A stretch of 64,000 bases of DNA from Kineococcus sp. NBC_00420 (GTDB lineage Bacteria; Actinomycetota; Actinomycetes; Actinomycetales; Kineococcaceae), in NCBI RefSeq assembly GCF_036021035.1, contig NZ_CP107930.1, positions 310,001-374,000 on the forward strand, written 5' to 3'. The notes under the pieces were generated by a model. It was not told the DNA's origin and searched no databases. It saw nothing but the letters and a program-made list of their open reading frames with translations. The position numbers and the translations under genes were made by a program. Below, one piece after another: positions 1,342 through 63,447 of this stretch (position 1 is the first letter of the stretch; each line of letters starts with the position of its first letter).

Positions 1342-1875
1342 ATCATTACGCTACGTCACAAAATGCGACCACGGGTTACGCCCGTCAGTATCGGCGGACC
1401 GCGATCTTGAGGTCTGGGTTGCCTTCCCGGGAACGGTCTGGGCTGACATAGCCAGCGAGCGTCAAGTGAGCGCCGAGGAGGCATCCGGCCCTTCGACTGT
1501 GACACGACCCCACCCAAGCCGCCCGCCTCGGCGACCGCTCAGCCTCCTGCATCATTGGTCGATCCAGGCTGGGAGCTCAACGGATACGGGCTGGCAGCCG
1601 GTGGCGACGGTCGGGTCACGTCGCGCGGTCCCGCCGACTGAGCCGCGACCTCGAGCGCGACCTGCTCTCAAGAGCGCACCGCCGCCAGGCCGGACGCTGC
1701 AGCCACCCGAAGCCCGCGCGGCGGTTGGAGAGTGGTGTCAACCGCAGCAACCGCACCGTTGCCAACCCGACCAAAGCGGGGGTAAGTCAAGAATTCCTTC
1801 CCCCGCGTCGATGTCCTACTTCCGGGGGTTGCCCCGGTGATCGGGATCACCGCAGGAGTGAGGGAGGAAGCGGTC
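1342..1875. other. Gene-free stretch upstream of the MASE1-GGDEF gene
   Basis: About 530 bases with no convincing gene on either strand; open frames here look like composition-driven shadows. The last 20 bases hold the ribosome site of the next gene (AGGGAGGAAG at 1861-1870). No hairpin terminator or palindromic operator was spotted. Confidence 0.5.
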
Positions 1876-4425: not shown

Positions 4426-4838
4426 GGAGCCGACCAGATCGACACGGCAATCCACGTCAACCACTTCGACAAGGGCAACCATGACGGCTCCATCGAACCT
4501 CACGCGCGCGTCGCAGCGCCGCCCGACGTCAACGACCGCGACCGCGACCGCGACCGCGACCGATAACACAGGTGCACGAATTGAGGACGCGAACCGAAGA
4601 CGACGTCCCCACCTGAAAGGTGGCTAGCCGCCGCATGGTTGCGCTCAATGAGTGGTGTCACGCCGAAGCCCTCAACGTGCACGATGAAGAGGACGACAAA
4701 AGGACGACGACCAGAACAACGACGAGAACGACGAGACAGCAGGACTCAAAAGAATACCAACGAAGAACACGAAACCGGCGACAAGCACGAACCGGTACAG
4801 CACATGGTGAGACCAACGCAGGCTGAACGGGGGTTGTC
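4426..4838. other. Intergenic region with a hexamer repeat
   Basis: No supported gene. Positions 4533-4562 hold five copies of CGACCG. From about 4690 to 4760 the sequence is a low-GC run rich in ACGA/AGAA for this genome. No hairpin terminator is obvious. Confidence 0.5.
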
Positions 4839-39953: not shown

Positions 39954-40790
39954 ATGACTGAGATCACCGCCCACCACGGCCTGTTCAAGGACACCAACCT
40001 GCACGTCGACGACACCGGCGGCACCGGCCGCACCGTCGTCCTCATCCACGGCTGGCCCCTCTCGGGCGCCTCGTGGTCGGAGCAGGTCCCCGCCCTGACC
40101 GCCGCCGGCTACCGCGTCGTGACCTACGACCGCCGCGGTTTCGGGCACAGCGACAAGACACGCTCCGGCTACGACTACGACACCCTCACCGAGGACCTGC
40201 ACACCCTCCTCGAAGCCCTCGACCTCAACGACGTCACCCTCGTCGGCTTCTCCATGGGCGGCGGGGAAGTCGCGCGCTACTTCACCAAGTACGGCACCGA
40301 GCGCCTGCACAGCGTGGTCTTCGCCGCCGCCGTCCCGCCGTACCTGGCCCAGGGCGATGACAACCCTGACGGCCCACTGACCCAGGAGATGGCCGAGGGG
40401 ATGGAGTCCGGCCTCAAGGACGACGAGGCCACCTTCTACGACGGGTTCGTCACCAACTTCTTCTCCGTCGATGGGGTCTTGAAGGTCACCGAGGCCCAGC
40501 GTCGGGAGGCCATCGCCCTGACCAAGCAGGCCGACAAGAAGGCCGCCCTGGCGGCCATGAACTCCTTCGGTACGACCGACTTCCGCGAGGACCTGACCAA
40601 GGTGAGCGTCCCGACCCTGGTCATCCACGGTGACGGTGACGCCGTTGTCCCCTTCGAGGGGTCCGGTGCTCGCACCCACGCCGCGATTGCCGGTAGCACG
40701 CTGCACGTCGTGACCGGTGCCCCGCACGGCTTCAACGTCAGCCACGCCGAGGAGTTCAACCGCGTCCTGCTGGACTTCCTCGCTCGCTGA
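39954..40790 (+). CDS. Alpha/beta hydrolase (non-haem chloroperoxidase-like)
   Basis: 278 residues from ATG 39954 with GAAGGAG upstream. The catalytic triad is placed by motif: Ser100 (GFSMGGGE), Asp229 (HGDGDAVVP) and His258 (APHGFN). The oxyanion-hole motif HGWPLSGASW and the YDRRGFGHSDKTRSGYDYDT segment are typical of the non-haem chloroperoxidase/esterase group. Natural substrate unknown. It ends 25 bases before the pentanucleotide microsatellite. Confidence 0.92.
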   Translation: MTEITAHHGLFKDTNLHVDDTGGTGRTVVLIHGWPLSGASWSEQVPALTAAGYRVVTYDRRGFGHSDKTRSGYDYDTLTEDLHTLLEALDLNDVTLVGFSMGGGEVARYFTKYGTERLHSVVFAAAVPPYLAQGDDNPDGPLTQEMAEGMESGLKDDEATFYDGFVTNFFSVDGVLKVTEAQRREAIALTKQADKKAALAAMNSFGTTDFREDLTKVSVPTLVIHGDGDAVVPFEGSGARTHAAIAGSTLHVVTGAPHGFNVSHAEEFNRVLLDFLAR

Positions 40791-40815
40791 CCACCACGCC
40801 ACGGCGCAGCACGGC

Positions 40816-40970
40816 ACGCCACGCCACGCCACGCCACGCCACGCCACGCCACGCCACGCCACGCCACGCCACGCCACGCCACGCCACGCCACGCCACGCC
40901 ACGCCACGCCACGCCACGCCACGCCACGCCACGCCACGCCACGCCACGCCACGCCACGCCACGCCACGCC
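40816..40970. repeat. 31-copy ACGCC pentanucleotide microsatellite
   Basis: Thirty-one uninterrupted copies of ACGCC (155 bases), flanked by near-copies (ACGGC, ACGGT). It starts 25 bases after the hydrolase stop. Every frame is open across it, so overlapping 'ORFs' rich in RHATP or RGVAW are artefacts. Perfect copies imply recent slippage or an active expansion mechanism. Confidence 0.95.
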
Positions 40971-41129
40971 ACGGTGCAGCACGACACGGTGCGGCCGGGA
41001 CCTGCTCCCGCACCCCGCTGAGACTCTGATCAGCGCCCCTACCGGGAGGTACCCATACGTGCAGCGGTCCACCCCCAGCAGGGGTGAACCGCTGCACGTC
41101 GTCGTGATCGGCGGTCAGGCGGGTAGCTC

Positions 41130-45557: not shown

Positions 45558-48023
45558 TCACGCCAGACGATGCTTCACCCGGTACATCTCCTGATCGGCG
45601 TGACGCAACAACTGCGCGAAGGTCAGCCCGTTACCGGGATACAGTCCAACCCCGATACTGGCTCCGACCGATCCAGTGCCGGCCCCCAGCGGCACCGGCT
45701 CCACAATCTGGGCAGTCAGCTTCTGCGCCACCTGCCACGTCACCTCCGCAGCAGTCGTCGGCTTCAAGTCAGTAAGCGCGACGACGAACTCATCGCCACC
45801 CAGCCGGGCCACCAGATCACCGTGACGCACCGCCCGACGCAACCGTTGCGACACCACACTCAACAGCTCATCGCCCGCGGCGTGACCGAACTCGTCGTTG
45901 ATCGTTTTGAAGCCGTCCAGGTCGCAGAACAGCAATCCCACCGTTGTGTCCCCGGCGCGGGCCTCCCAGAGCGCTTCCTCCACGAACTGCTCGACGCGTC
46001 GACGATTCGCCAGGCCCGTCAACGCGTCGGTGTAAGCCATCTCTTCAATCTGACGCAGGTAGCTGCGAGACCGCTCTCGTTCCCGCTCCGCCTCACGCTG
46101 GGCTCGCACCCGATCGCTGACGTCGAGCTGGACGCCGACGTACTGCACAAGCCGGCCTGCCCCATCGACTACCGGTGACAGGTGGATCTCGTTCCACCAC
46201 GGGATCTGCTCGCGACCGCGGTAATTCAGAAGAAGTCCGCGCCATTCCTGCCCGGTCGCGATCGCTGAACGGATGGCGTTCACCACCCCCGGGTCGGAGT
46301 CCGGGCCTTGCAGCAGTCGGCAGTTACGTCCCAGCAGCTCAGCACTACTGAAGCCTGACAGCTGCTCGAACGCGGCGTTGACGTAGATGAGTGGGGCGTC
46401 AGGACGCGTCAGGTCCGCGATCACCACCCCACTACTCGTGGCCGCCAACGCCCGCTGCAACAGCGGATCAACATTCGTCATGGACTGGGCACCGGGCTGA
46501 CCCGATGCAGAGATGAACTGGTCATGGGACAGAGCGAGGGCCTCAAGCTGAGCTGCGGACCCGGACCCGGACCCGGACCCGGATATGGACCCGGATATGG
46601 TCTCGGTCCCTGACGCGGTCCCCGACTCAGCGTCAAGCTCGGTCCCGAGCTCACGGCGGGCGGTGATGCGCGGTGCGACCCGCGAGAGCAGGGAGTGCAT
46701 CGCTGCCACCACCACATCCCGGTCATAGGTCAACGCGTATTCGAACATCCGCTCCCGCTCCGCGCCCTGGTCTCCCAGGTCAGCAGCCAACAACGCCGCA
46801 GCAAAGTGCGGAGCCAGGACCACCACGTCCCACTCCCCCCTGACCGGGTCGCCTGGCTGCAGTGTTGCGCCCCGCACCCCTGGTAGTGGCGAGGTCGAGA
46901 GCCCCTCTCCCAGGGCAGCGACGAACCCGACCCGCTCAGCCAGGTCCCGATACCGGGACCTGGTGGCTGGGGTGAAGTGTCGGGCCTCCTGAAAGGTCGA
47001 GACGATGACGCAGGTGCCACCGAGTCGCCGTGCCTCCCGTTCCAGCTGTTTGCTGACTTCGATCAACAGCGCTTTGGGTGAGCGCCGCAGCAGCGTTCCC
47101 GCCGGAAGCGCGGCGAACGGCGACGTCGCCTCGTAGTCGATGACCGGCGCCGGGGTGGGCAAGGTCAGCTGGCCCGTCCGTTCCGCCTGCACTGGCGGAC
47201 TCGCCGGGCGGCCGAACATCCATCCCTGCCCCAGTTGAGCACCCAATGCCCGAGCTGTGGCCAGATGGGCTTCGTCTTCAACACCCTCGGCCAGGACCAC
47301 CGCGCCGCTGCCCTGGGAGTAGGCGTTGACCGCGTTCATGATCTGCGCGACCGCGGCACCGGGACGGCCCTGCACCAGCCGCAGATCGAGCTTGATCACA
47401 TCGGGGCGCAGTAGCGGCATGAAGGCCAGCGACATGGCCTCCGCCCCGACGTCGTCCAAGGCGATGCCCCAGCCGATCTCCCGAATCCGCGCCACCGTAC
47501 GCAGCAGTTCCGCGGGGCGGGCCGCTAACGCACGCTCGGTGATCTCCACCACCACCCGCAACTGCCCGGGCGCGCCCTCGGCCAGGGCCAGCAGCTGGCT
47601 CAACGGCGCAGCGTCGAGCACCTCGGGCTCGACGTTGACGAACAACGTCAGCGGAGCCACCACGGCGTGCTCCACCGCCCCGCGAAACGCCGCGGCCCGA
47701 CACGCCTGGTCCAGCTCTGTCAGGCTGCCGACGGCCCGCGCGGCTGCGAAGAGGTCATCAGGTCGATGCAGAGGGCCCACCGGCCCCCGTACCAGCGCCT
47801 CGTAGGCAACGACCGCACTGGAGTCCAGATCCACGATGGGCTGGAAGACGCTGTACAACCTGCCCTCGGTGATTACTCGATCCACCGGAGCACGGCCGCT
47901 ACCTGCAGCATCCCTCCCTGCTGGCATCCCAGCACCCCCCACAGCACCCGCCACAGCACCCATCACGGCACCCGTCACCTCTCTGGCTTCGACACATCGA
48001 CCGACCTCGCCCAGTGAAATCAC
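45558..48023 (-). CDS. EAL-DICT-LOV-GGDEF c-di-GMP blue-light-type protein
   Basis: 821 residues using GTG 48023 (start uncertain; the open frame extends further but is not protein-like). An EAL domain comes first (~50-290: YEALVRG, FVNVEPE, VVEITERA, LDDVGAEAMS, VIKLD, AEGVED and GQGWMF). A DICT domain follows (~305-450). Then a LOV-type PAS (~515-640): LLGRNCRLLQGPDSDP holds the photoactive Cys at ~568, with NYR, WNEIHLSPV and a conserved Gln in YVGVQLDVSDR for flavin binding. A GGDEF domain ends the protein (GGDEF ~742, RHGD I-site). Light could switch between synthesis and breakdown of c-di-GMP. A (GS)-repeat linker precedes LOV. Confidence 0.9.
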   Translation of the reverse strand: MISLGEVGRCVEAREVTGAVMGAVAGAVGGAGMPAGRDAAGSGRAPVDRVITEGRLYSVFQPIVDLDSSAVVAYEALVRGPVGPLHRPDDLFAAARAVGSLTELDQACRAAAFRGAVEHAVVAPLTLFVNVEPEVLDAAPLSQLLALAEGAPGQLRVVVEITERALAARPAELLRTVARIREIGWGIALDDVGAEAMSLAFMPLLRPDVIKLDLRLVQGRPGAAVAQIMNAVNAYSQGSGAVVLAEGVEDEAHLATARALGAQLGQGWMFGRPASPPVQAERTGQLTLPTPAPVIDYEATSPFAALPAGTLLRRSPKALLIEVSKQLEREARRLGGTCVIVSTFQEARHFTPATRSRYRDLAERVGFVAALGEGLSTSPLPGVRGATLQPGDPVRGEWDVVVLAPHFAAALLAADLGDQGAERERMFEYALTYDRDVVVAAMHSLLSRVAPRITARRELGTELDAESGTASGTETISGSISGSGSGSGSAAQLEALALSHDQFISASGQPGAQSMTNVDPLLQRALAATSSGVVIADLTRPDAPLIYVNAAFEQLSGFSSAELLGRNCRLLQGPDSDPGVVNAIRSAIATGQEWRGLLLNYRGREQIPWWNEIHLSPVVDGAGRLVQYVGVQLDVSDRVRAQREAERERERSRSYLRQIEEMAYTDALTGLANRRRVEQFVEEALWEARAGDTTVGLLFCDLDGFKTINDEFGHAAGDELLSVVSQRLRRAVRHGDLVARLGGDEFVVALTDLKPTTAAEVTWQVAQKLTAQIVEPVPLGAGTGSVGASIGVGLYPGNGLTFAQLLRHADQEMYRVKHRLA
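46554..46600. repeat. 6-bp in-frame repeat (Gly-Ser linker)
   Basis: About eight units of GGACCC/GGATAT type encode a Gly-Ser linker just before the LOV domain of the minus-strand protein. Confidence 0.7.
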
Positions 48024-48409: not shown

Positions 48410-51025
48410 GTGAGGACCCTCCCCCAACCCCGTCCCACGGCGGGCAGAGCGTCGATGCTTGTCGTCGGCAGCGTCGTGATCAGCGTCCTGATCAGCGTCG
48501 CCGCTGCGGTCGTTCTCGTCGGCGTCGGAGTCCTCACCACCTCGAGTCAGGTGATCGGTAGCAGCTCCGCCCTGCCGGACCACTCTCCAAAGACCACCTC
48601 GTGGGTCACCATCGCCGCGGCCGCTCGCGTGGTCATGTTCGCCGCGGCCGCGGTGGTGATGCGTTGGCGTACGAGGTCGGCAGGCCCGGAGGCTGCGGTG
48701 TGGCGTTGGCTGGCCCGTGCCGCGGTCCTCGCCGCGGGTGCCTCCAGCGTGGCCGCAGGCCTGGACATCGGCGCAGCGCACGGCATCTCGACATCCACGC
48801 TGACGTCGGCGGCGGTGGGCTCAGCGATCTTCAACCTCGGAGTCCTCGCCGCGTGCCCACTGCTCTACCAAGCCCTGATCCACTGGAACCGCTACGGCAC
48901 CCTCACCGCCGAACCCGGCGACTGGCTCAACGGCCTCGGCGCGGTGTTCGCCTTGGCCGCCCTGGGCAACCTCACCATGCTCTGGCTGCATTCCCCACTC
49001 TTGTCTTGGCCGGCTTGGCAACTGCAACTATGGCTGATCCGGGTCGCGGCAGAAATCTTGGTCGTCGGCACTGCTGCCACCATCCTCATCATCGGCGGGC
49101 TGCTGCGCGACGTCCGCGCCTGGGCCTTCACCCTCGCCGTGACCGTGGCCGCCGGCTTCGACGCCGCCCACATCGGCGACCCGGCGGCAGCATCCGGGAC
49201 CGCCTCCTACTCCGACCTGGGTTACGCAACTGTGATCGTGGTCCTGGTCATCTGCGCGCTCCTGCCCGCGCCCGCGCCGCTACCGCGCCCCAGCACCTCC
49301 GAGGCCCCCACCGCCGGATCCTTCATCATCCTGCTGGTCAGCATCAGCGTCCTGGTCGGCACCGGCCTGCTCATCTACACCCACACCCCCGGCTCCACCG
49401 TCTGGTGGGCGACACTGTGGGCCGGGACAGCAGCCGCCGCAGTCTCTCTCCGCGGCCTGCACTCCATCCACCTCCTCGCCCACCTGCTCATCAGCCGCCA
49501 CGAAGCCCTCACCGACGACCTCACCGGACTGGCCAACCGTCGAGCCCTGGACCGTCGACTCATCGAAGACACCACCGCTGCTCGTCCTTTCACCTTGGTG
49601 ATCATCGACCTGGACGGGTTCAAGCAGATCAACGACCGGTTCGGCCACGCCGTCGGTGACGAAGTCCTGCGACGAACGGGCCGCCTGCTGAACACCGTGG
49701 TCCACGCACCCGCCCTCGCCGCCCGCCTGGGCGGGGACGAATTCGCCGTCGTCTTCCCCGATCACTCCCTGCTGGCCGCGCAGGATGTCTTCGTTGCCCT
49801 GGCCCACGCGACCCGAGAACCCGTCCAGATCGACGGGCGCCGCCTGCTCATTCACGGCAGCGTCGGCATCGCCGTCACCGACCCCGGCGACACCCCCGAA
49901 CAGGTCCTCCGCCACGCCGACGCGGCGATGTATCGAGCCAAGACCGCCGGCGGCGACCGCTACGAAATCCACGACGAAGTCGCAGCGCACCACGCAGCAC
50001 AGCAAGCGCAACTGGTGGAAGAGTTGAAAGCCCTCCTCGGCGCACGCGATGCCCGAGACGACGTCGAGACCGGCCGCCTGCTCGTCTACTACCAACCGCA
50101 GCTCTGCCGCACCGGCCGCGTCGTCGGGGCTGAAGCGCTGGTGCGGTGGGACCATCCCCGCCTGGGCGTGCTCACACCGGACGCTTTCCTCGACCACGTC
50201 GAGGACTACGGCCTCATGCACGCCCTCACCACCGAAGTCATGCAGCAGGCGATCCACCACGCCGCGCACTGGCAGTCGATGTGTCCACGTCTTGATCAGG
50301 ACCTTGGGCATGACGCCGGGCATGACGCCGGGCATGACGCCGGGCATGACGCCGGGCATGACGCCGGGCATGACGCCGGGCATGACGCCGGGCATGACGC
50401 CGGACACGACGCCGGACACGACGCCGGACAGGGGCTGCGGATCTCAGTGAACCTCTCGGCCACCTCCTTGACTCACCCCGACCTGCTGGGCCTGATCGAC
50501 CGCCTCCTGGCCGAGTCCGCCTTGACGCCGGCTGCTCTGGTCCTGGAAATCACCGAGACGTCCATCATGGTGGATCCGGAAGAGTCCATCGCCCGCCTCC
50601 ACGACCTGGCCGGGCGTGGGATCGCCATCAGCATCGACGACTACGGCAGCGGCTACTCCTCCCTCGCCTACCTCAACAACCTGCCCGCCAGCGAACTGAA
50701 ACTCGACCGCTCCCTCACCCAGCAGGTCACCACCACAGCGCGGACGGCGGACATCGTCGCCGGCACCGTCGCACTGGCCCACCGCCTCGGTCTGCGGGTA
50801 GTTGCCGAAGGTGTCGAGGACACCACCATGCTCGTCGCTTTACACGAGCTGGGTTGCGATGAGACGCAAGGGTTCCTGCATGCCCGTCCCATGAACGGGG
50901 AGGCTTTCACCGCTCACCTCGCCCTCGAGGCTGCCGCTGTCACCGCACCGATCGCTACCCCCCCGACAGCGCCCGACACGACACCATCACCTTCCCGGAC
51001 CTACCTCCCCGTGACCAGCCTCTGA
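48410..51025 (+). CDS. Membrane GGDEF-EAL protein with a (GHDA)10 insert
   Basis: 871 residues from GTG 48410. Residues ~15-365 contain about nine hydrophobic helices. GGDEF (~441-445) is intact with no I-site (HAPA). The EAL domain has EAL (~575), then ten GHDA tetrapeptides (~633-672) inserted in the loop before the LRISVNLS strand. The remaining EAL residues follow: VLEITETS, SIDDYGSGYSSL, LKLD, VAEGVED and DETQGFLHA. Both enzymatic activities look possible if the insert is tolerated. It faces the LOV gene divergently, with a 386-base gap to that gene's chosen start. Its EAL half is closest to the protein at 14932. Confidence 0.9.
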   Translation: MRTLPQPRPTAGRASMLVVGSVVISVLISVAAAVVLVGVGVLTTSSQVIGSSSALPDHSPKTTSWVTIAAAARVVMFAAAAVVMRWRTRSAGPEAAVWRWLARAAVLAAGASSVAAGLDIGAAHGISTSTLTSAAVGSAIFNLGVLAACPLLYQALIHWNRYGTLTAEPGDWLNGLGAVFALAALGNLTMLWLHSPLLSWPAWQLQLWLIRVAAEILVVGTAATILIIGGLLRDVRAWAFTLAVTVAAGFDAAHIGDPAAASGTASYSDLGYATVIVVLVICALLPAPAPLPRPSTSEAPTAGSFIILLVSISVLVGTGLLIYTHTPGSTVWWATLWAGTAAAAVSLRGLHSIHLLAHLLISRHEALTDDLTGLANRRALDRRLIEDTTAARPFTLVIIDLDGFKQINDRFGHAVGDEVLRRTGRLLNTVVHAPALAARLGGDEFAVVFPDHSLLAAQDVFVALAHATREPVQIDGRRLLIHGSVGIAVTDPGDTPEQVLRHADAAMYRAKTAGGDRYEIHDEVAAHHAAQQAQLVEELKALLGARDARDDVETGRLLVYYQPQLCRTGRVVGAEALVRWDHPRLGVLTPDAFLDHVEDYGLMHALTTEVMQQAIHHAAHWQSMCPRLDQDLGHDAGHDAGHDAGHDAGHDAGHDAGHDAGHDAGHDAGHDAGQGLRISVNLSATSLTHPDLLGLIDRLLAESALTPAALVLEITETSIMVDPEESIARLHDLAGRGIAISIDDYGSGYSSLAYLNNLPASELKLDRSLTQQVTTTARTADIVAGTVALAHRLGLRVVAEGVEDTTMLVALHELGCDETQGFLHARPMNGEAFTAHLALEAAAVTAPIATPPTAPDTTPSPSRTYLPVTSL
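50306..50425. repeat. Ten-copy 12-bp in-frame repeat inside EAL
   Basis: Eight identical GGGCATGACGCC units followed by two GGACACGACGCC units, encoding (Gly-His-Asp-Ala)10. Identity of eight units implies recent expansion. His and Asp at regular four-residue spacing could bind metal, but this is speculation. Confidence 0.95.
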
Positions 51026-51204
51026 CGACGTCCCCAGTAGCTGACGACGTTGACGAATGCTGCGGCGGGTACCAGCGGCGGGTACCGGAGGTGAAGACCC
51101 ACCGAGACGGGGCGTCGACCGCGTCGTGTCCCGGTCAATGTCAGACAATCCCCGGCCTGAAGATCAGCGAGCAGAACACCCACCACACCCCGACCATTAA
51201 GCGC

Positions 51205-51666
51205 ATGTGCACCACAACTCGATCCTCGCGAGCGAGCCTGCCCGCCACGCTGACCTCCGGGCGACTCGCGCGACGCTTCCTCAACGAGCACTGGTGCACC
51301 CCCCACTGCAGCGCCGACCTCGATCAAGCCCGCCTGCTCATCACCGAGCTGGTCTCCAACGCCGTCCGCTACGGCGGGCCGCCCATCACCGTCGAAGTCG
51401 AGTGCATCGGCCCCGAAGGCGTCCTCCTCTCTGTCAGCGACGGCAGCGACGAAGACCCTCCCGCACCTCGAGTAGCTGACCCCCACGCCCTCGGAGGACG
51501 CGGGATCCACCTCATCGACCACCTCAGCGACGAGTGGGGAGTCCAACACCCCCACCACCTGGCAGGTGGCCAGCATCACCACCAAAACGGCGCGAACGAC
51601 GCATCCGCTGGCGTCAGTACCGGCAAGACCGTGTGGTGTCGCCTCGTCCCGGCCGGGATCTCCTAA
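51205..51666 (+). CDS. RsbW-like HATPase (anti-sigma kinase type)
   Basis: 153 residues from ATG 51205 (GTG 51091 would add 38 codons). A GHKL ATPase of the short serine-kinase type: N-box LLITELVSNAVRYGGPP, G1 box VSDGSDEDPP, G2 box LGGRGIHLIDHLSDEWGV and GKTVWCRL at the end. A His/Gln-rich insert lies before the last strand (HHLAGGQHHHQNG). Such proteins bind and phosphorylate STAS antagonists or hold sigma factors. A STAS gene lies 210 bases downstream on the same strand. Confidence 0.82.
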   Translation: MCTTTRSSRASLPATLTSGRLARRFLNEHWCTPHCSADLDQARLLITELVSNAVRYGGPPITVEVECIGPEGVLLSVSDGSDEDPPAPRVADPHALGGRGIHLIDHLSDEWGVQHPHHLAGGQHHHQNGANDASAGVSTGKTVWCRLVPAGIS

Positions 51667-51692
51667 CCCCGTCCTACCTCCGCCACCACCAC

Positions 51693-51729
51693 ACCGCCGT
51701 ACCGCCGTACCGCCGTACCGCCATACCGC
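51693..51729. repeat. 8-bp tandem repeat
   Basis: About four and a half copies of ACCGCCGT, one with CAT in place of CGT, in the non-coding gap between the HATPase and STAS genes. Confidence 0.8.
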
Positions 51730-51876
51730 CGCCTGACCCCCAACACTCCCTTCCACCCACCTCCTCGTACGTGTGTTCTACGCTCGACCCCGACTTGGAC
51801 ACGACCCCGTGGACAGAAGCCGAGACGAAGCTGACGGAGCTTCGGCAACAGCGGAAATAGGCAGAGGGGGTGGGAC

Positions 51877-52326
51877 GTGAACGAGACCGACAGGGCCCTC
51901 GCATCGGAAACCGGCTCGGACACCGACCTGGACACGGGCGCGGACACCGACCTGGACACGGGTCTAGAGACGAGCCAGATCTACGACAGGGGTGACGCCG
52001 TCGGCGGTGGCCAGATCCTCATCGACCACACCGTAAAGCGGACCACCATCACCTTGCACGGAGAAGTCGACGCCGCCATTGGCGGGCGCCTGGACACCTT
52101 GCGGGAAGAGGCGAGGGCCGCCGGCCACGACGTCACGGTGGACGTCGGTGCTGTTTCGTTCATGGACTCCACCGGTCTCGCCTTCCTCGCCCAGCTCATC
52201 CGCAGCAGCACAGCGCAGCCAGTGCGGCTGCTCAACCCCGCCCCGCAGGTCGCCTACCTACTCACCATCAGCGGCCTCAACGACCTCTTCGACATCGATA
52301 TCGACGACGGTGTCGCGACCAGCTGA
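51877..52326 (+). CDS. STAS-domain anti-sigma factor antagonist
   Basis: 149 residues from GTG 51877 with GGGGGTGGG just upstream. The N-terminus has a TDLDTGAD-type repeat. The STAS domain carries the phosphorylatable Ser in VSFMDSTGLAFLAQLI, with TLHGEVDAAIGGRLDTL and LNPAPQVAYLLTISGLNDLF. When unphosphorylated it would free a sigma factor from its anti-sigma kinase. Its likely kinase is the HATPase upstream and its phosphatase the SpoIIE protein at 36084. Confidence 0.88.
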   Translation: MNETDRALASETGSDTDLDTGADTDLDTGLETSQIYDRGDAVGGGQILIDHTVKRTTITLHGEVDAAIGGRLDTLREEARAAGHDVTVDVGAVSFMDSTGLAFLAQLIRSSTAQPVRLLNPAPQVAYLLTISGLNDLFDIDIDDGVATS

Positions 52327-53847: not shown

Positions 53848-56202
53848 TCACCCCGCGATCGCCTGGTGCTCAGCTATCCCCGGCCAGGCCGCCCGCCACC
53901 GCTCGAACGCGTCCGCAGGTAACGGTCGCGACACGTGATACCCCTGCGCCACATCGCAGGAATAGCCCGCCAGCGCCTTCAGGACGGCAGCATCCTCGAC
54001 ACCCTCGGCCACCGCGCTCAAACCGAGGTTGTGACCTAGTTCGATGACACTGCGCACGATCATGGCGTTGCTGGAGTCGGTCTGCATCGTCGCCACGAAG
54101 GAACGGTCCACCTTCAACTCACTCACCGGCAGGTTCTTCAAGTGCGCCAGGCTGGTGTAACCAGCACCGAAGTCGTCGATGGACAACTGCACCCCCAGAG
54201 CATGCAGACGTTGCAGCACCGCCCGCGCCCGCACCGGATCAACCATGACCGCGCTCTCGGTCACCTCCAGCTTCAACAACGCCGGAGCCACCCCGTAGCG
54301 GGTGAGCAGTTCAGCGACGTGGCGGTCCAGACGCTCATCGAGCAGGTTGCGCGCAGAAAGGTTCACCGCCACCTGCAACGCCTCCCCCGCATCGACCCAG
54401 CGACGGGCCTGCCCCAGCGCCAGCTCCAGCACCCGGGTCGTCAACGGCCCGATCAAGCCGGTGTTTTCCGCCAGCGGGATGAAGTCGTCAGGAGCGATCA
54501 TTCCGCGCTGCGGATGCTGCCAACGCACCAGCGCCTCCACACCGCACACCTCACCCGTGTCGACGGCGATCTTGGGCTGGTAATGCAAGATCAGCTCATC
54601 GTTGCTCAACGCCCGACGCAGGTCCCCCAGTAGTGCCAACCGCTCGGGACTGTGCCCATCAATGCTGGAGTCGTAGACGGCGACCCCTACCCCGTGCTGC
54701 TTCGCGGCGTACATCGCCACATCCGCACGTTGCATCAACGCCGCGGGATCATCGCCATGCATCCCGGACAAGGCAATACCGATGCTGGCCTCCACGTCCA
54801 AGGTCACCCCCTCCACCTCGAACGGCAGCGTTAGCACCTCCTGCAGCTCATAGGCGATGGCCACCGCAGTCTCCAGGTCACCGACGCCGGCGAGGAGGAC
54901 GGCGAATTCATCTCCGCCCAGACGGGCGATGGTGTCACCGGCTCGCAGCACCTGGCGCAAGCGCGGGTCGATCTGAATGAGCAGTTCATCGCCGTAGTGG
55001 TGGCCCAGGGTGTCGTTGATCTCTTTGAAGCGGTCCAGGTCGATGAGCAGCAGCGCGGTAGCCGACCCCGTTCCCGCGCCCCCATCAGCGGAGGCCCCCA
55101 GGACCTGCGCGAAACGCTCTGCCAATAGGGCCCGGTTAGGCAGGCCGGTCAAGGTGTCGTGCAGCGCGCGGTGCTCCAGCTGCTGCTGCAGCTCGTGGCG
55201 CTCGGTCAGGTCGTGGCAGGTCAGCACCAGACCCCCGACAGCCGGGTCGCTCGTGAGGTCCTGCACCGAGATCGCCAACGTCCGCATGCTCGAGTCGGTG
55301 CGCAAGCGCACATCCACGGTGACGCCGCGCTGAGGGTGCACCTGCTGCAGAGCCACACGCAGCGCGTCGCGGTCGCTCTCGTGCACCAACGCCAACACAT
55401 TCAGCACCGCACCCGCACCCGCACCCGCACCCGCACCCGCACCCGCACCAACGACAGTGCCGGCCCCAGCACCGGTAACAGCCAGCACCCGCTGCGCGGA
55501 GGGACTGAGGTAACTCAGCACCCCCTCACGGTCGCTGACCAGCACCAAGTCCGAAGAGCGGTCGATCAGAGCGCGGTAGCGCGCCTCGCTGCGGCGTTCG
55601 GCGTCACGCCGTAGCTGGGCCCGCCGGCGGCGGTTCTCCACGAACGCGGTCAAGCCCAACCCCAACGCCACGGTGATGACGATGCCGGCGTTGCTGAGCC
55701 ACTGCGCCCGCGCGGCGGCCGAGGACGCCGCGCCACTGTGCTCCTGGAGGAGATCCATGACGGCGTCGAAGGCCGGGTCCACCTCGGCCTCGTCAACTTC
55801 TTCGGCTTCCTGCGTCCGCCCGACACTCAAGAGCCGTAGTTCGTCATCGACGGCGCTGTCGTAACGATCCTGCGCGCTGGCCAGCTTTTCGCTAGACGAA
55901 GAACTCTCAGCCCGGGTGGTGAGGACGCGAGCCCGTGTACGCGATCTCGTCAGCTCCTCAGCCACGTCGTAGGGTGTCACCCGGCCGCTGATGGCCCGCC
56001 ACTCCAGGGCGTCCTGACTGTGCAGTTCGGCGCTGATCGCCTGCAGGTCGCGTTCGGTGCGCACGCTCTGCTCACCAACGGACTTCAAACTCAACGTTAT
56101 CGTCATCACTGCGGCAAAGAGAACAAGCACCGCCGCGACCGCGACGATCCTCCGTGATCCATCGATGCGATGGCCCGCACTGATGTTTCGTCTCTTCCGC
56201 AT
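53848..56202 (-). CDS. Membrane PAS-GGDEF-EAL protein with periplasmic helical sensor
   Basis: 784 residues from ATG 56202. One helix (~18-40), an extracytoplasmic helical region (~45-165, Glu/Ser/Arg-rich, four-helix-bundle-like), a second helix (~170-190), then PAS (~205-330), GGDEF (~345-505) and EAL (~525-770). The PAS holds a Gly-Ala repeat insert (VGAGAGAGAGAG). GGDEF is intact with an RAGD I-site. EAL residues are complete: VEALVRW, VNLSARN, LEVTESA, SIDDFGAGYTSL, LKVD, VAEGVED and VAQGYHVS. Likely a bifunctional enzyme with an external input. Confidence 0.92.
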   Translation of the reverse strand: MRKRRNISAGHRIDGSRRIVAVAAVLVLFAAVMTITLSLKSVGEQSVRTERDLQAISAELHSQDALEWRAISGRVTPYDVAEELTRSRTRARVLTTRAESSSSSEKLASAQDRYDSAVDDELRLLSVGRTQEAEEVDEAEVDPAFDAVMDLLQEHSGAASSAAARAQWLSNAGIVITVALGLGLTAFVENRRRRAQLRRDAERRSEARYRALIDRSSDLVLVSDREGVLSYLSPSAQRVLAVTGAGAGTVVGAGAGAGAGAGAGAVLNVLALVHESDRDALRVALQQVHPQRGVTVDVRLRTDSSMRTLAISVQDLTSDPAVGGLVLTCHDLTERHELQQQLEHRALHDTLTGLPNRALLAERFAQVLGASADGGAGTGSATALLLIDLDRFKEINDTLGHHYGDELLIQIDPRLRQVLRAGDTIARLGGDEFAVLLAGVGDLETAVAIAYELQEVLTLPFEVEGVTLDVEASIGIALSGMHGDDPAALMQRADVAMYAAKQHGVGVAVYDSSIDGHSPERLALLGDLRRALSNDELILHYQPKIAVDTGEVCGVEALVRWQHPQRGMIAPDDFIPLAENTGLIGPLTTRVLELALGQARRWVDAGEALQVAVNLSARNLLDERLDRHVAELLTRYGVAPALLKLEVTESAVMVDPVRARAVLQRLHALGVQLSIDDFGAGYTSLAHLKNLPVSELKVDRSFVATMQTDSSNAMIVRSVIELGHNLGLSAVAEGVEDAAVLKALAGYSCDVAQGYHVSRPLPADAFERWRAAWPGIAEHQAIAG
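55409..55448. repeat. 6-bp repeat encoding Gly-Ala
   Basis: About six copies of GCACCC on the plus strand, read on the minus strand as GlyAla units inside the PAS domain of the GGDEF-EAL protein. Confidence 0.8.
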
Positions 56203-58457: not shown

Positions 58458-58876
58458 GACCGACCGCCCATCACCAGGGCACCGGAGCGGCACCAGACAG
58501 TGACCAATCGACTGACCGACAGCCGTCCTTAACGTTCGCCGGCGACGGTCTCGGTGCAGGAGTTACCGAGCTGAATGATCGATATCGCCCACGCTGGCGA
58601 CGTTGTCGAACCGGTCGAGCAGGTGCCTCGTGCGTCGGCCAGGTAGAAGCCAAGATGCGGTTTGCCTCTCCCGGTCCTCCCGCGGTGCGTGCGAAGCGCA
58701 TGGTCATCCCTCAGTACGCGCGAAGGTGCGCGTTCCTTCCGGGCACGGCCATACGGCCCCGAGCCACATCCGCCACGTCAAGGCGCCATCCCCCGACCTG
58801 GAGACGGCGACCCGGAGACACCGACCCGGAGACACCGACCACGTGCATTACAGCCACCCACCCCATCAACCGACAG

Positions 58877-61063
58877 GTGAACGTGACCGCCGTCCTGTCC
58901 ACACCCCCCACCGCGGCTGCACCCCCAGCCACCGCTGAGGCGGAGGACGAGCAGACCTGGCGCCTCCCGGGCCGATCCCACCTCTCCGAACCGGTCTGGA
59001 GAGTCCGCCACCGCTGGGTCACCACCGTCCTCCTGGTCCACCTCCCGATACTGCTGGGATGGGCTCTGCTGCGCCACGCCTCAACCGACACCCTCCTCAC
59101 CCTCTGCGCCCCAGCCCTGCTCTACCTGGCCGCCTCCATGGACCACCTCACCCGCGGGCGCCTGCCACTACCCCCGGTACTGGCCTCCTGCGCCGCCGCA
59201 GCCGGGCTGATGGCCTGCTCCTCCTTCCTGGTCGCCGTCTCCGGCGGCTACATCGAAGCCCACTTCCACTTCTTCGTGATGATCCCCATCGTGGCCCTCT
59301 ACGAAGACTGGGCACCCTTCGCCGTCGCCGCCGGAATCGTGCTCCTCGAACACGGCGTAGTCGGCACCCTCTGGCCGCACAAGGTCTACGGCCACGCCGC
59401 CATGCACAGCGAACACCCCTGGCTCTTCGCCGCCATCCACGCCGGATTCGTCATCGCCGCCTGCCTAGGATCATTGACCGCCTGGACCCTCAGCGAACGC
59501 GCCCGCACCACCCAGGAACGTCTCCTAGAACAGCTGCATCACCGCACCCGACACGACGACCTCACCGGCCTGGCGAATCGCACCGCCCTCGCCGAAGCCC
59601 TCGACACCGCCCTGGCCACCGCCCTGGCCACCGACACCCCGGTCTCGATCCTGGCGATGGACCTGGACCACTTCAAAGCCGTCAACGACACCCTGGGCCA
59701 CTCCGCCGGTGATGACCTGCTGCGCGAGGTCGCCGCCAGAGCGACCGCGTCGCTCGCCGAGTCCCTGACCGCATCTCTCGCCGGCTCGCTGACCGAGTCC
59801 CTTAGCGGCACCACCAGCCCCGACGCCTTGACCGTGCGCCTGGGCGGCGACGAGTTCGCCGTCCTCCTCCCAGGCCTAGACGCAGACCAGGCCCTGCAAC
59901 TGGCGCAGCACCTGCGACGCAGCATCGGACGTGCCACGACGTTGCTGGGCACCACCGTCAGCACCTCGGTCAGCATCGGGGTCGCCACCCGCCCCACACC
60001 TACCTCGCCCAGCTCGCCCAGCTCGCCTACCGTCGAAGAGCGCGCAGCGATCGCGGAACAGTTGCTGCGCGAAGCCGACGTCGCGATGTACGTGGCCAAG
60101 ACCTCCGGCAGTGGCACCAGCCTCTACGACCCCACCCACGACCAGCACACCACCGAACGCCTGACCGCCTTGAACGACTTCCAGCAGGCCCTGGACTGCG
60201 ACCTCACCCTCGACCAACGCTCAGGCGAGCGGCTCGGCGAGACCCCCGGTGCGGACCTCGCCCCCCGACTCCGCGGGCAGGAGAGTCGCCAGATCGTGGT
60301 CCACCTCCAACCCAAGGTGTCAGTCAGCACCGGACAACTCCTCGGGGTCGAAGCCCTGGCCCGGTGGAACCACCCCACCCGCGGTGTCCTACCACCGAGC
60401 GAGTTCATCGCCATGGCCACCAGCCCCGACCTCTCCGAGGCGTTCACCACCCGCGTCCTGGAAGCAGCCCTGACCCAGTGCGCCACCTGGCTGCGCGCCG
60501 GCTACGAGGTACCCGTCTCGATCAACGTCACCGCCCACTGCCTACCCCGACTCGCCCTGCCGATGCGGCTGCTGGACGCCCTGCAACGCCACAACGTCCC
60601 CCCACGACTGCTGTGCCTGGAGATCACCGAAGACGTCCTGGTCGCTGACCCGGACACGACCGCCGAAGTCCTCGCCCTGTTGCGTCACGCCGGGATCCGC
60701 TGCTCCATCGACGACTTCGGCACCGGCTTCTCCTCGCTGTCCTATTTACGCCGGCTGCCTTTGGATGAGTTGAAGATCGACCGGTCCTTCATCCTGGGAA
60801 TGTTCCCCCACGGACCCGACAACGCAGTCGATGACGTCGTGGTGGGCGCCGTCATCGACCTGGGCCACCGCCTCGGTGTCCACGTCGTCGCCGAAGGCGT
60901 CGAGCACCAGCACGAGCTCGACGCCCTGGCCCGGTTGGGCTGCGACAGCGTGCAGGGCTACCTGCACTCCCCACCCGTCCCCGCCTCCGCCTTCCCCCAG
61001 CACCTACTCGAAACCACCCGAACAACTTCGACGGCTCCGCGCGCACATCAGCTGCCGACCTGA
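58877..61063 (+). CDS. His-rich six-helix membrane GGDEF-EAL protein
   Basis: 728 residues from GTG 58877. About six helices carry the motif GGYIEAHFHFFVMIPIVALY with EDWAPFAVAAGIVLLEHGVV, a conserved membrane sensor pattern seen, from memory, on chemoreceptors and c-di-GMP proteins. GGDEF is intact without an I-site; a Ser/Leu/Ala/Thr repeat insert precedes it. EAL is complete: VEALARW, INVTAH, LEITEDV, SIDDFGTGFSSL, LKID, VAEGVEH and VQGYLHS. A TSPSSPSSP linker lies between the domains. Divergent to the chemoreceptor gene. Confidence 0.9.
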   Translation: MNVTAVLSTPPTAAAPPATAEAEDEQTWRLPGRSHLSEPVWRVRHRWVTTVLLVHLPILLGWALLRHASTDTLLTLCAPALLYLAASMDHLTRGRLPLPPVLASCAAAAGLMACSSFLVAVSGGYIEAHFHFFVMIPIVALYEDWAPFAVAAGIVLLEHGVVGTLWPHKVYGHAAMHSEHPWLFAAIHAGFVIAACLGSLTAWTLSERARTTQERLLEQLHHRTRHDDLTGLANRTALAEALDTALATALATDTPVSILAMDLDHFKAVNDTLGHSAGDDLLREVAARATASLAESLTASLAGSLTESLSGTTSPDALTVRLGGDEFAVLLPGLDADQALQLAQHLRRSIGRATTLLGTTVSTSVSIGVATRPTPTSPSSPSSPTVEERAAIAEQLLREADVAMYVAKTSGSGTSLYDPTHDQHTTERLTALNDFQQALDCDLTLDQRSGERLGETPGADLAPRLRGQESRQIVVHLQPKVSVSTGQLLGVEALARWNHPTRGVLPPSEFIAMATSPDLSEAFTTRVLEAALTQCATWLRAGYEVPVSINVTAHCLPRLALPMRLLDALQRHNVPPRLLCLEITEDVLVADPDTTAEVLALLRHAGIRCSIDDFGTGFSSLSYLRRLPLDELKIDRSFILGMFPHGPDNAVDDVVVGAVIDLGHRLGVHVVAEGVEHQHELDALARLGCDSVQGYLHSPPVPASAFPQHLLETTRTTSTAPRAHQLPT

Positions 61064-61473
61064 GTGAGGAACAGATCGTCGCCACACACGGAACGGCTCG
61101 TCCATACGCTGTTCTCGACGGTGCTGTCACCGCAGGCTCGTTCGGGCACAGCGGACTCACGGAAGTAAGCGGACTCACGGAAGTAAGCGAAGCCCACCGT
61201 GTCTGCCCTCAGCGATCGCGCGTGTAGCAGACCCCATCGATGCAGGCGAGAAGTTGTCGTCGAGACCGTCATCGACGGGTGCTGGCCGAAGTCAGCTACG
61301 GCAATGTCCTCATCTCGACGACCGAGGTTGCCGATGCTCTCTCGGTGGACAAGAACGACCGGCTCACCGTTGCCCGTGAGGTGCGAGAAAGCGACGCTGA
61401 GCAAGAAGCCGGGCAAGGTGAACTCGCCTGGCCCCCCGTCTCTGACCTCCCCGCCCCCGTCCCTATCACCGGG

Positions 61474-63447
61474 ATGTCCGCGCGGCTAGCAGCACTGCAC
61501 GAGTACCGCCTGCTCGACACCCCCGCCGATGATGAGCTCTCGGCGGTGGTGCGCGCCGCCGCGGCCGTGGCCCGGGTGGCGCACGCGACGCTGAATCTCA
61601 TCGACGAGGACCGCCAGTGCCAGCTCACCACCGTAGGCTTTGAAGGTGGCGACTCTGCACGCGAGGACTCCATGTGCGCGCTGCACTTCGAGGACGGCGA
61701 GCTCGTCCACGTCGTCGACGCCTCCCTCGACCCCCGCTTCGCGCGCAACCCCTGGGTCGACGGGCGCTTGGGAAAGGTGCGCTTCTACGCCTCCTCCCCC
61801 TTAATCAGCCCCGCCGGCCATGCACTGGGCTCGTTGTGCGTCTTCGACACCGTCCCCGGCCACTTGGACGAGCAGCAGATGGACGTCCTGCGCGACCTGG
61901 CCACCGTGCTGGTGGCGCTGTTCGAACGTCGCCGCCAGACCCGTCTGGCCGAGCACCAGGCTCAGGAAGCCGCCGAGGCGCGAGAGCTGATGGCGGTGGT
62001 CATGGCCGAGGCAGAGGAACGTTGGGAGCTGAGCGAGGTCATCGGGGAGACCATCGACGTCGGCTTGGTCGTAGTCGATCCACGAGGTCACCTCACCTCG
62101 TTCAACCGCACCGCCCGACGCTGGCACGGCCTGGGTCCCGACGCGTCCTTGGACCCAGGCGAGCACGCAGGGACCTACGCCCTCTTCGCCGCCAACGGCA
62201 CGACCCCCCTGCCCGCGCAGAACGTCCCGGTGCACCGCGTCCTGCGCGAGGGGGCGGTGGACGGAGTGGAGATCGTCATCGCTCCTCGAGGCCGTTCACG
62301 ACGCATGGTGGTGTGCTCTGGTCGCCTAATGCGCCGCGCCGACGGCACCCCCCTGGGGGCGGTGGTCGCGATGACCGACGTCACCGCAGACCGCGCCCAG
62401 GCCCAGGCCCTGGGTGCAGCCCACACCGAACTGGCTAGTGCCCACTCCGAGCTGGCCGCGCACACCGCCCGGGTCGAAGCCCTGGCCGAAGCCTCGCGGG
62501 CCCTGGCCACGGCTGAGGAACCCCACGAAGTGATCTGCCAGGCGGTACGTGACCTCACCGGCGCCGATGCCGTCTACCTCCTGCAGCCTGATGAGCAGGG
62601 CAACCTGGGCACCAGCGCGAGCGTGGGCCTGCCGGTGGACTCCCTGCACGTCCCCGCCGGGGAGACCTCGCTACCAGGTCTAGCCCTGGCCGCCGGGCGC
62701 AGCCTCTTCGTCGCCGACGTCCCCGCGCACCCCGCCGCCTCCGCGCGTCTGGTGCAGACCCTGGGCACGGCCTCAGGCATCTGGCAGCCGGTGGTGCTGC
62801 CCGGCCGGCGGGTCGTTGGAGTGCTGGGGGTCTACTGGCGAACCCCTCACCAGCAGCTGCCATCCCATGTCCTCCCTGTGCTGCAGACGCTCTCGGCAGA
62901 AGCTGCTCACGCCATCGAACGGGCCGAACTCCTGGCGCGTTTGGCACAGGCGGCGGAACGCGACTCGCTGACCGGCTTGGCTAACCGTCGTCGCTGGGAC
63001 CAGGTCGTTGACGCTGAGGTCCAGCGAGCCGAACGCAGTGGGGCGCCGTTGACGCTGGCGATGATCGACCTGGACCACTTCAAGCGGTACAACGACACCC
63101 ACGGCCACCTCGAAGGTGATGCGCTGCTGCGCGAGTTCGCCGACGCGGCCTCCTCGTGCCTGCGCGGCATCGACACCCTCGCACGCTGGGGTGGGGAAGA
63201 GTTCGTTCTGGCTCTGCCAGGATGCACCGGGGAAGACGCGCGCGTCGTGGTGAACCGCATCCGCACTCTCGTGCCGCGGGGGCAGACCTGCACCGTCGGG
63301 GTGGCGCAGTGGAGTCCAGGACTCACCGCAGCGCAAGTCATCGCCCAGGCCGACGAGGCGCTCTACCGAGGCAAGGAAGGCGGGCGCGACACCACGATCG
63401 TGTGCTCCTCGCTGCACCTCGAGAGGACCGCACCTGCCGCAGAATGA
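61474..63447 (+). CDS. GAF-PAS-GAF-GGDEF diguanylate cyclase
   Basis: 657 residues from ATG 61474 (start uncertain; the frame is open from 61240). GAF (~5-155, with RLAALHEYRLLDTPADDELS and MCALHF), PAS (~190-310), GAF (~330-490) and GGDEF (~500-640). Motif WGGEEF with an RGID I-site, so an active, feedback-inhibited cyclase is expected. The PAS-GAF-GGDEF part is strongly similar to the protein at 1876; for example both have a DxxxGQTCT(I/V)G(I/V)AQWxPG segment. It lacks the MASE1 membrane part and is therefore soluble. Confidence 0.88.
   Translation: MSARLAALHEYRLLDTPADDELSAVVRAAAAVARVAHATLNLIDEDRQCQLTTVGFEGGDSAREDSMCALHFEDGELVHVVDASLDPRFARNPWVDGRLGKVRFYASSPLISPAGHALGSLCVFDTVPGHLDEQQMDVLRDLATVLVALFERRRQTRLAEHQAQEAAEARELMAVVMAEAEERWELSEVIGETIDVGLVVVDPRGHLTSFNRTARRWHGLGPDASLDPGEHAGTYALFAANGTTPLPAQNVPVHRVLREGAVDGVEIVIAPRGRSRRMVVCSGRLMRRADGTPLGAVVAMTDVTADRAQAQALGAAHTELASAHSELAAHTARVEALAEASRALATAEEPHEVICQAVRDLTGADAVYLLQPDEQGNLGTSASVGLPVDSLHVPAGETSLPGLALAAGRSLFVADVPAHPAASARLVQTLGTASGIWQPVVLPGRRVVGVLGVYWRTPHQQLPSHVLPVLQTLSAEAAHAIERAELLARLAQAAERDSLTGLANRRRWDQVVDAEVQRAERSGAPLTLAMIDLDHFKRYNDTHGHLEGDALLREFADAASSCLRGIDTLARWGGEEFVLALPGCTGEDARVVVNRIRTLVPRGQTCTVGVAQWSPGLTAAQVIAQADEALYRGKEGGRDTTIVCSSLHLERTAPAAE

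Follow-up and report, generated by a model that had tools for sequence, protein, structure and literature searches.

Whether one bacterial protein uses light to govern both the synthesis and the degradation of the second messenger cyclic di-GMP (c-di-GMP), or only one of these activities, is the question raised by a locus of Kineococcus sp. NBC_00420 (assembly GCF_036021035.1). Positions 310,001 to 374,000 of contig NZ_CP107930.1, which comprises 5,434,400 bases, a stretch of 64,000 nucleotides referred to here as the window, contain a gene whose predicted product of 821 residues joins EAL, DICT, LOV, and GGDEF domains. A preliminary description of this sequence had proposed that light toggles c-di-GMP turnover. 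The sequence supports a photoactive LOV domain acting on turnover, and bidirectional control only in part: the LOV-GGDEF helix is fixed in length, EAL and DICT lie behind a variable disordered spacer, and loop 6 of EAL deviates from the consensus. The best explanation of the whole, to which we give somewhat better than an even chance, is that blue light drives c-di-GMP synthesis through a C-terminal module of the LadC type, with DICT controlling EAL.

The coordinates and domain order given in the preliminary description were correct, and the profile search that it named as a check placed all four domains over the curated Pfam cut-offs: EAL with 128.5 bits (cut-off 31.3), DICT (PF10069) with 38.1 bits (cut-off 23.8; profile positions 22-127 of 129), PAS_9, at residues 532-637, with 49.7 bits (cut-off 27), and GGDEF with 147.6 bits (cut-off 23.8). 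The PAS_9 family takes in LOV domains (PMC8846402). The closest sequence match in the PDB is 8c05 (E 2.7e-45), in a single alignment running from LOV into GGDEF; the LOV domain alone best matches 6hmj (E 5e-34), titled RNA-binding LOV receptor. The presumed adduct cysteine is C568, the number already proposed, and both alignments rule out a chance PAS match. The GGDEF domain, described earlier as active-looking, holds the intact GGDEF motif, DxLT, and an intact RxxD I-site (R733-H-G-D736) five residues ahead of the motif, features by which active diguanylate cyclases are recognized. The open frame and the intact sites of this copy rule out a pseudogene. The GTG start is uncertain, since alternative in-frame GTG or ATG codons occur on both sides.

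The protein belongs to a family. A contig scan with the DICT-LOV part as the query gave 98 confirmed loci, 80 of which were kept; 30 loci of an order-wide scan and others were added. All four domains were present in 97 frames, and removal of duplicates of the same protein left 85 distinct proteins, the window protein included, which rules out a lone oddity. Frames without at least one domain were left out, as were an open frame without GGDEF (L022; labels of this kind denote loci of the survey) and a gene split over two frames (L099). The alignments used for the models (34 and 56 sequences) were both subsets of the 85. By record name or group code, the family comprises proteins from Blastococcus (25), Geodermatophilus (15), Modestobacter (10), Klenkia (3), Cellulomonas (3), Kineococcus (5, a further 7 by the same-genus code, and the window protein), Quadrisphaera (2), Pseudokineococcus (1), and other genera (10), with a further three to which no genus is assigned; K. 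siccus, K. indalonis, K. vitellinus, and Kineococcus sp. TRM81007 are among the hosts. Matches at E ≤ 1e-60 were found in 8 of 394 genomes drawn from the class and matches at E ≤ 1e-25, many in the LOV part only, in 40 of 198 genomes of the order, while in all 11 Kineococcus genomes a LOV match came after a DICT match on one contig, either in one piece or no farther off than the length of a gene. The 85 proteins are close relatives (LOV identity at least 52% in the rows shown), so that the counts describe this family and do not extend to LOV proteins in general. No search peptide pattern covers the cysteine motif or the LOV-GGDEF linker, so the conservation of neither was forced by the search. 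The GG(D/E)EF motif is intact in 71 proteins, the I-site R..D in 79, and the EAL, LOV, and GGDEF residue sets are all intact together in 69.

A paralogue of the same layout, with the intact LOV motif GRNCRFLQG, is encoded at 4,170,284-4,172,686 of the same genome; its identity to the window protein is 83% in EAL, 79% in DICT, 69% in LOV, and 65% in GGDEF. It groups as the sister of the window protein in a tree built from the EAL-to-LOV region, with a support of 92 in the Shimodaira-Hasegawa-like approximate likelihood ratio test (SH-aLRT) and branches of 0.61 for the window protein vs 0.24 for the paralogue. A literature search, to which most subscription journals were closed, found no paper on the EAL-DICT-LOV-GGDEF layout.

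Conservation of the LOV domain points to a photoreceptor. C568, which lies in the pattern GxNCRxLQ, forms a presumed pocket set with N567, R569, Q572, N600, N611, and Q632, which we take to be flavin contacts, and these letters align with solved LOV domains. The cysteine is kept in 85 of 85 proteins and the seven-residue set is complete in 84 (the exception is L090); the phenylalanine of NCRFLQ, present in 72 members, is replaced by leucine in the window protein. Since linkers of LadC length accompany this conservation, the reading that c-di-GMP turnover is under the control of a photoactive LOV domain is, at the level of sequence, well supported.

It is the length of these linkers that most strongly indicates a coupling of light to the cyclase. 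Counted with the D of DVS as its first residue and the L of DALT as its last, which corresponds to the definition D(I/V)(T/S)...DxL applied to LadC (PMC10396304), the LOV-GGDEF linker has exactly 35 residues in the window protein; across the family it has 35 residues in 83 proteins and 21 in two. Long-class LadC enzymes (MsLadC, SfLadC) have a 35-residue linker and are activated by light more than 10,000-fold, and those of the short class (AoLadC, DpLadC), with 21 residues, about 15-fold (PMC10396304). Beyond the 85 proteins, 21 residues were counted in L039, L040, and L114 and 35 in the fragment L099, and the linker pattern was unmatched in one further frame, of LOV-GGDEF-EAL order (L112). 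The same 85 proteins provide an internal control: 27 different lengths, between 42 and 91 residues, occur for the DICT-LOV span (443-533), nine for the EAL-DICT span (273-317), with 82 proteins within 42-47, and two for the LOV-GGDEF linker. Position 15 of the linker (E648) is glutamate in all 83 members with 35 residues and corresponds, by hand count, to Glu132 of MsLadC, an expected destabilizer of the coiled coil next to a disordered part of the linker (PMC10396304).

Structural models agree with this division. AlphaFold predicts one continuous helix for residues 636-664 (597-625 in model numbering) and a disordered DICT-LOV spacer, with a predicted local distance difference test score (pLDDT) below 50. 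In a Foldseek search with the full model, the top match was 8c05, entitled "LOV-activated diguanylate cyclase, dark-state structure" (E 4.8e-19 over 306 columns), with a root-mean-square deviation of 22.8; the arrangement of the domains therefore differs between the two. The likeness to the long-linker enzymes MsLadC (8c05) and SfLadC thus extends to LOV placed directly ahead of GGDEF, the 35-residue D(V/I)(T/S)-to-DxL linker, the adduct cysteine, the RxxD I-site, and the glutamate at linker position 15, whereas the LadC proteins studied consist of LOV-GGDEF and the Kineococcus protein carries an EAL-DICT module and a disordered spacer ahead of LOV.

The EAL domain had been described as having all catalytic residues. 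This holds for the metal-binding and catalytic residues by which class I EAL phosphodiesterases are recognized, whose roles we presume: the nine-residue set of Table 1, including E163, presumably the glutamate that stabilizes loop 6, is intact in 83 of the 85 proteins, the other two (L075, L108) being gapped at E75. It does not hold for loop 6 itself, which in active EAL domains typically reads DFG(A/S/T)(A/G)(Y/F) (PMC2994820) and in the Kineococcus protein reads DDVGAEAMSLAF; a DDVG start without the second glycine characterizes 85 of 85 family members, the loop-6 pattern as such giving no match in rows L075 and L108. A non-canonical loop 6 is present in all 98 DICT-linked EAL domains examined, i.e., in the family and in 13 of 13 other EAL-DICT frames without a LOV match that come from the same loci (ten clearly lack LOV, L099 is part of the split gene, and L103 and L106 end at a contig edge). 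Where EAL occurs without DICT and its loop could be matched, in 12 rows that include one gene two times, the loop invariably reads DDxGxG; L039 and L040, with the order EAL-LOV-GGDEF, are no exception. Co-evolution of DICT with loop 6 is suggested by this small sample, and we infer that DICT may regulate this EAL domain. A possible exception to a strict link is the L010/L004 gene, in which loop 6 deviates, yet DICT has no Pfam match, merely weak BLAST similarity.

The DICT domain was modeled with a mean pLDDT of 90.4 (residues 285-462). Foldseek returned no match for it at E ≤ 0.001; among its 11 best matches (E 2e-3 to 1.2e-2), three were dihydrodipicolinate reductase chains and eight were of the polyphosphate kinase 1/NucT/phospholipase D/Zucchini type (probability 0.98-1.00, TM-score by query length 0.37-0.51). 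We take the latter proteins to share the phospholipase-D-like fold, and the model thus hints at, without establishing, such a fold for DICT. One review counts DICT among the domains of no discernible purpose (PMC8846402), and a predicted role in the light response is cited elsewhere (PMC8612252). The Kineococcus protein resembles DICT-domain signaling proteins in that PF10069 exceeds its cut-off and adjoins c-di-GMP domains, and differs from others in pairing DICT with a loop-6-deviant EAL.

The domains, residues, linker lengths, and their conservation are directly observed in these sequences. The working that we propose is that of a two-module, probably dimeric, cytoplasmic enzyme, whose C-terminal module would be a long-linker diguanylate cyclase of the LadC type, activated through LOV. 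Illumination with blue light would generate a flavin-C568 adduct and rearrange the LOV dimer, upon which the 35-residue linker would form a coiled coil, allowing the GGDEF domains to meet and c-di-GMP to be made; the direction from light to synthesis is likely, and the RHGD I-site would give feedback inhibition. In the N-terminal module, the non-canonical loop 6 of EAL goes with the DICT domain behind it, which, responding to some signal, may set EAL to hydrolyze or merely bind c-di-GMP, and the disordered spacer would let both modules act on one local c-di-GMP pool. More tentatively, and as a reading that we ourselves find rather doubtful, each sensor may own one of two opposing activities, with LOV driving synthesis via the fixed coiled coil and DICT, co-evolved with a rewired EAL loop 6, gating breakdown, so that the protein would be a logic gate of light and a second cue; in one Blastococcus clade, considered below, light would have been re-routed to the EAL/I-site side.

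Several observations weigh against the best explanation. The first half of the LOV domain, including the cysteine region, is modeled with a pLDDT below 50 (model segment 414-531); in the structural check suggested in the preliminary description, the model therefore does not confirm the pocket. The caging residues D44 and E46 at the interface of MsLadC align, by hand reading with a counted offset, with S559 and A561, and tight dark caging may therefore not be conserved. DICT-LOV spans of 52-58 residues occur in 56 of the 85 proteins, so this spacer is not wholly free. The deviation of loop 6 casts doubt on the activity of EAL. LOV-GGDEF constructs derived from LOV-GGDEF-EAL proteins, which differ from the window protein in having a 21-residue linker, gave no light-regulated synthesis in the experiments described for them, and the authors of the LadC study suggest that light may target EAL in such proteins (PMC10396304).

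The case against light acting through the cyclase alone rests chiefly on a Blastococcus clade. In a tree computed by a quick method without the GGDEF part, nine proteins form one branch (SH-aLRT 100), and in all nine the GGDEF motif is degenerate (TRDSF in four, ARDSF in three, SHDSF and GRDAF in one each), while 9/9 retain the EAL residue set, all six LOV positions that were checked, the I-site, and a linker of 35 residues. Identity within this clade is 91.5% in EAL, 91.5% in DICT, 87.1% in LOV, 77.4% in the linker, and 67.6% in GGDEF, compared to 92.1, 90.2, 84.5, 89.7, and 81.7%, respectively, in another Blastococcus clade, whose 12 members comprise 11 with an intact GGDEF motif and L064 with AGDEF. 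Light sensing thus appears to stay constrained after the loss of the cyclase; since LOV, EAL, and I-site residues are kept and LOV identity is 87.1% vs 84.5%, light can hardly act only via the cyclase in these nine proteins and presumably acts through another output. The five other deviant motifs of the family (GGDAF, AGDEF, GDDQF, GGDEL, SGDEF) are scattered, which makes six changes in all on the tree. At five Blastococcus loci (L071, L078, L080, L082, L096), the family gene is directly followed, on the same strand, by one that encodes EAL-DICT-GGDEF and lacks LOV.

This clade keeps alive the alternative that the EAL phosphodiesterase is the main target of light, GGDEF serving as a regulatory domain that binds GTP or c-di-GMP, or that light shifts both activities. 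In addition to the nine proteins and the suggestion of the LadC authors, it is favored by the retention of the EAL set in 83 of 85 proteins (the other two being gaps) vs 71 for the GGDEF motif, and by the precedent of SL2 from Synechococcus elongatus, a LOV-GGDEF-EAL protein with light-responsive c-di-GMP turnover whose reported light output is phosphodiesterase activity (PMC8846402). We nevertheless consider it unlikely for the window protein, in which GGDEF is canonical and EAL loop 6 deviates, and in whose family the LOV-GGDEF linker is length-locked, whereas the path from LOV to EAL runs through a variable, predicted disordered spacer. That the protein is a light-activated cyclase whose EAL-DICT head senses the product, EAL binding c-di-GMP without hydrolyzing it, seems to us more improbable still: this would account for the missing second glycine of loop 6 in the 85 proteins and the non-canonical loop of the 13 other DICT-linked EAL domains, but pure binding would not need the metal and catalytic residues and E163 that 83 proteins retain. 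We give very little credence to the idea that LOV is mainly a redox or oxygen sensor working via its flavin. Flavin-containing PAS/LOV-like domains may respond to redox, as exemplified by PASd of RmcA, but this domain lacks the adduct cysteine (PMC8846402). The cysteine, which redox sensing should not require, is invariant in our family, and although the host has no detectable reaction-centre protein, its genome encodes one phytochrome and no fewer than three additional LOV proteins that carry the cysteine motif. Synthesis of c-di-GMP under blue light, with DICT acting on EAL, thus remains the explanation that we prefer.

The genomic setting of the family was also compared. Among 63 family loci with long flanks, 54 were from Geodermatophilaceae; in these, pheT- and pheS-like genes lie on one side (35 and 17 loci, the flanks often ending first) and an rRNA-methyltransferase-like gene, rplT, and infC on the other (45, 46, and 39 loci), the names having been assigned by reading the sequences. 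The surroundings of the window gene and of its paralogue showed no neighbors of the pheT/pheS/rplT/infC type, and the survey of conserved neighbors at family loci revealed no partner gene. Constant neighbors in Geodermatophilaceae that are absent around the window gene and its paralogue argue for long vertical inheritance in that family and for the lack of a dedicated partner. A search of the host genome for reaction-centre proteins, with Synechococcus as the positive control, found none, in agreement with the earlier designation of the host as a non-phototroph, and biology limited to phototrophs is thus ruled out. BLUF was absent from all 11 Kineococcus genomes, the search control in E. coli being positive. 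Two of the further LOV proteins of the host, L122:3226-5634(-) with GTNCRFLQG and L121:2464-4635(-) with GRNCRFLQG, end in SpoIIE phosphatase domains and are candidate blue-light-controlled phosphatases; the phytochrome, L124:2805-5486(+), has a PAS_2-GAF-PHY arrangement and also ends in a SpoIIE phosphatase domain.

A GGDEF-EAL gene is oriented divergently to the window gene, and c-di-GMP, SpoIIE, STAS, HATPase, and chemoreceptor genes surround the latter, whose features are collected in Table 1. Seven further GGDEF and/or EAL genes were found among the 18 window frames scanned, with methyl-accepting chemotaxis protein (MCP) chemoreceptor and SpoIIE genes between them, and the 5.43 Mb genome gives 92 GGDEF matches over the Pfam cut-off (at least one gene matched twice), a large c-di-GMP network. 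In the GGDEF-EAL gene at 48410-51025, an in-frame tandem repeat (GHDA)n around 50300 splits the Pfam EAL match. At 51091-52326, near the window gene, consecutive genes for HATPase_c_2 (anti-sigma-like) and STAS proteins are possibly a partner-switch pair. A long tandem repeat at about 40790-41070, with repeated peptides in several frames, lies downstream of an alpha/beta-hydrolase gene.

Table 1. Features of the EAL-DICT-LOV-GGDEF gene and related genes in window coordinates.
Feature	Position	Strand	Basis and details
Whole gene, EAL-DICT-LOV-GGDEF, 821 aa	45558..48023	minus	Open frame, GTG start
EAL domain, residues 49-273	47205..47879	minus	Pfam; E75, N130, E160, E163, D190, D191, K211, E246, Q266; non-canonical loop 6 DDVGAEAMSLAF
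DICT domain, residues 315-414	46782..47081	minus	Pfam and AlphaFold model
Low-complexity DICT-to-LOV spacer, residues ~453-518, Ser/Gly repeats	46470..46667	minus	Predicted disordered
LOV domain, residues ~521-636	46116..46463	minus	Pfam PAS_9 and alignment with solved LOV domains
Codon of presumed adduct cysteine C568 in GRNCRLLQG	46320..46322	minus	Sequence
LOV-to-GGDEF helical linker, 35 residues, D634 of DVS to L668 of DALT	46020..46124	minus	Sequence and AlphaFold
GGDEF domain, residues 663-818	45570..46037	minus	Pfam
I-site RHGD, residues 733-736	45816..45827	minus	Sequence
GGDEF active-site motif, residues 742-746	45786..45800	minus	Sequence
Regions holding further GGDEF/EAL genes	1837-7091, 14932-17514, 48410-51025, 53848-56202, 58655-63447		

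Other known systems share parts of this design. SL2 likewise unites LOV, GGDEF, and EAL in one protein, in the order LOV-GGDEF-EAL instead of EAL-DICT-LOV-GGDEF, and the portion of the review dealing with it names no DICT (PMC8846402). PadC and PadC-EAL also join a light sensor to GGDEF via a length-quantized coiled coil, and one phytochrome-activated diguanylate cyclase is named in Kineococcus xinjiangensis (PMC9587094); these proteins use red light and a phytochrome, whereas blue light and flavin are predicted here, and DICT is not mentioned in the sections of that article considered here. The parts and the mechanism are already known from LadC; the new elements are the fusion with EAL-DICT, its spread in these actinobacteria, the correlation between loop 6 and DICT, and the clade with a dead cyclase.

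The family offers a natural test of LadC-type coupling, with linkers of 35 vs 21 residues and live vs dead cyclases, and the loop-6 correlation provides a handle on what DICT does. With synthesis and degradation domains, of predicted activity, on one chain, the protein is also a candidate tool. If the two-sensor reading is true, it would be more than a simple light switch, combining light with a second cue. Several genera of this actinobacterial group are known from deserts, stone, and radiation; if the proposed mechanism is true, the group would have a long-kept blue-light input to c-di-GMP.

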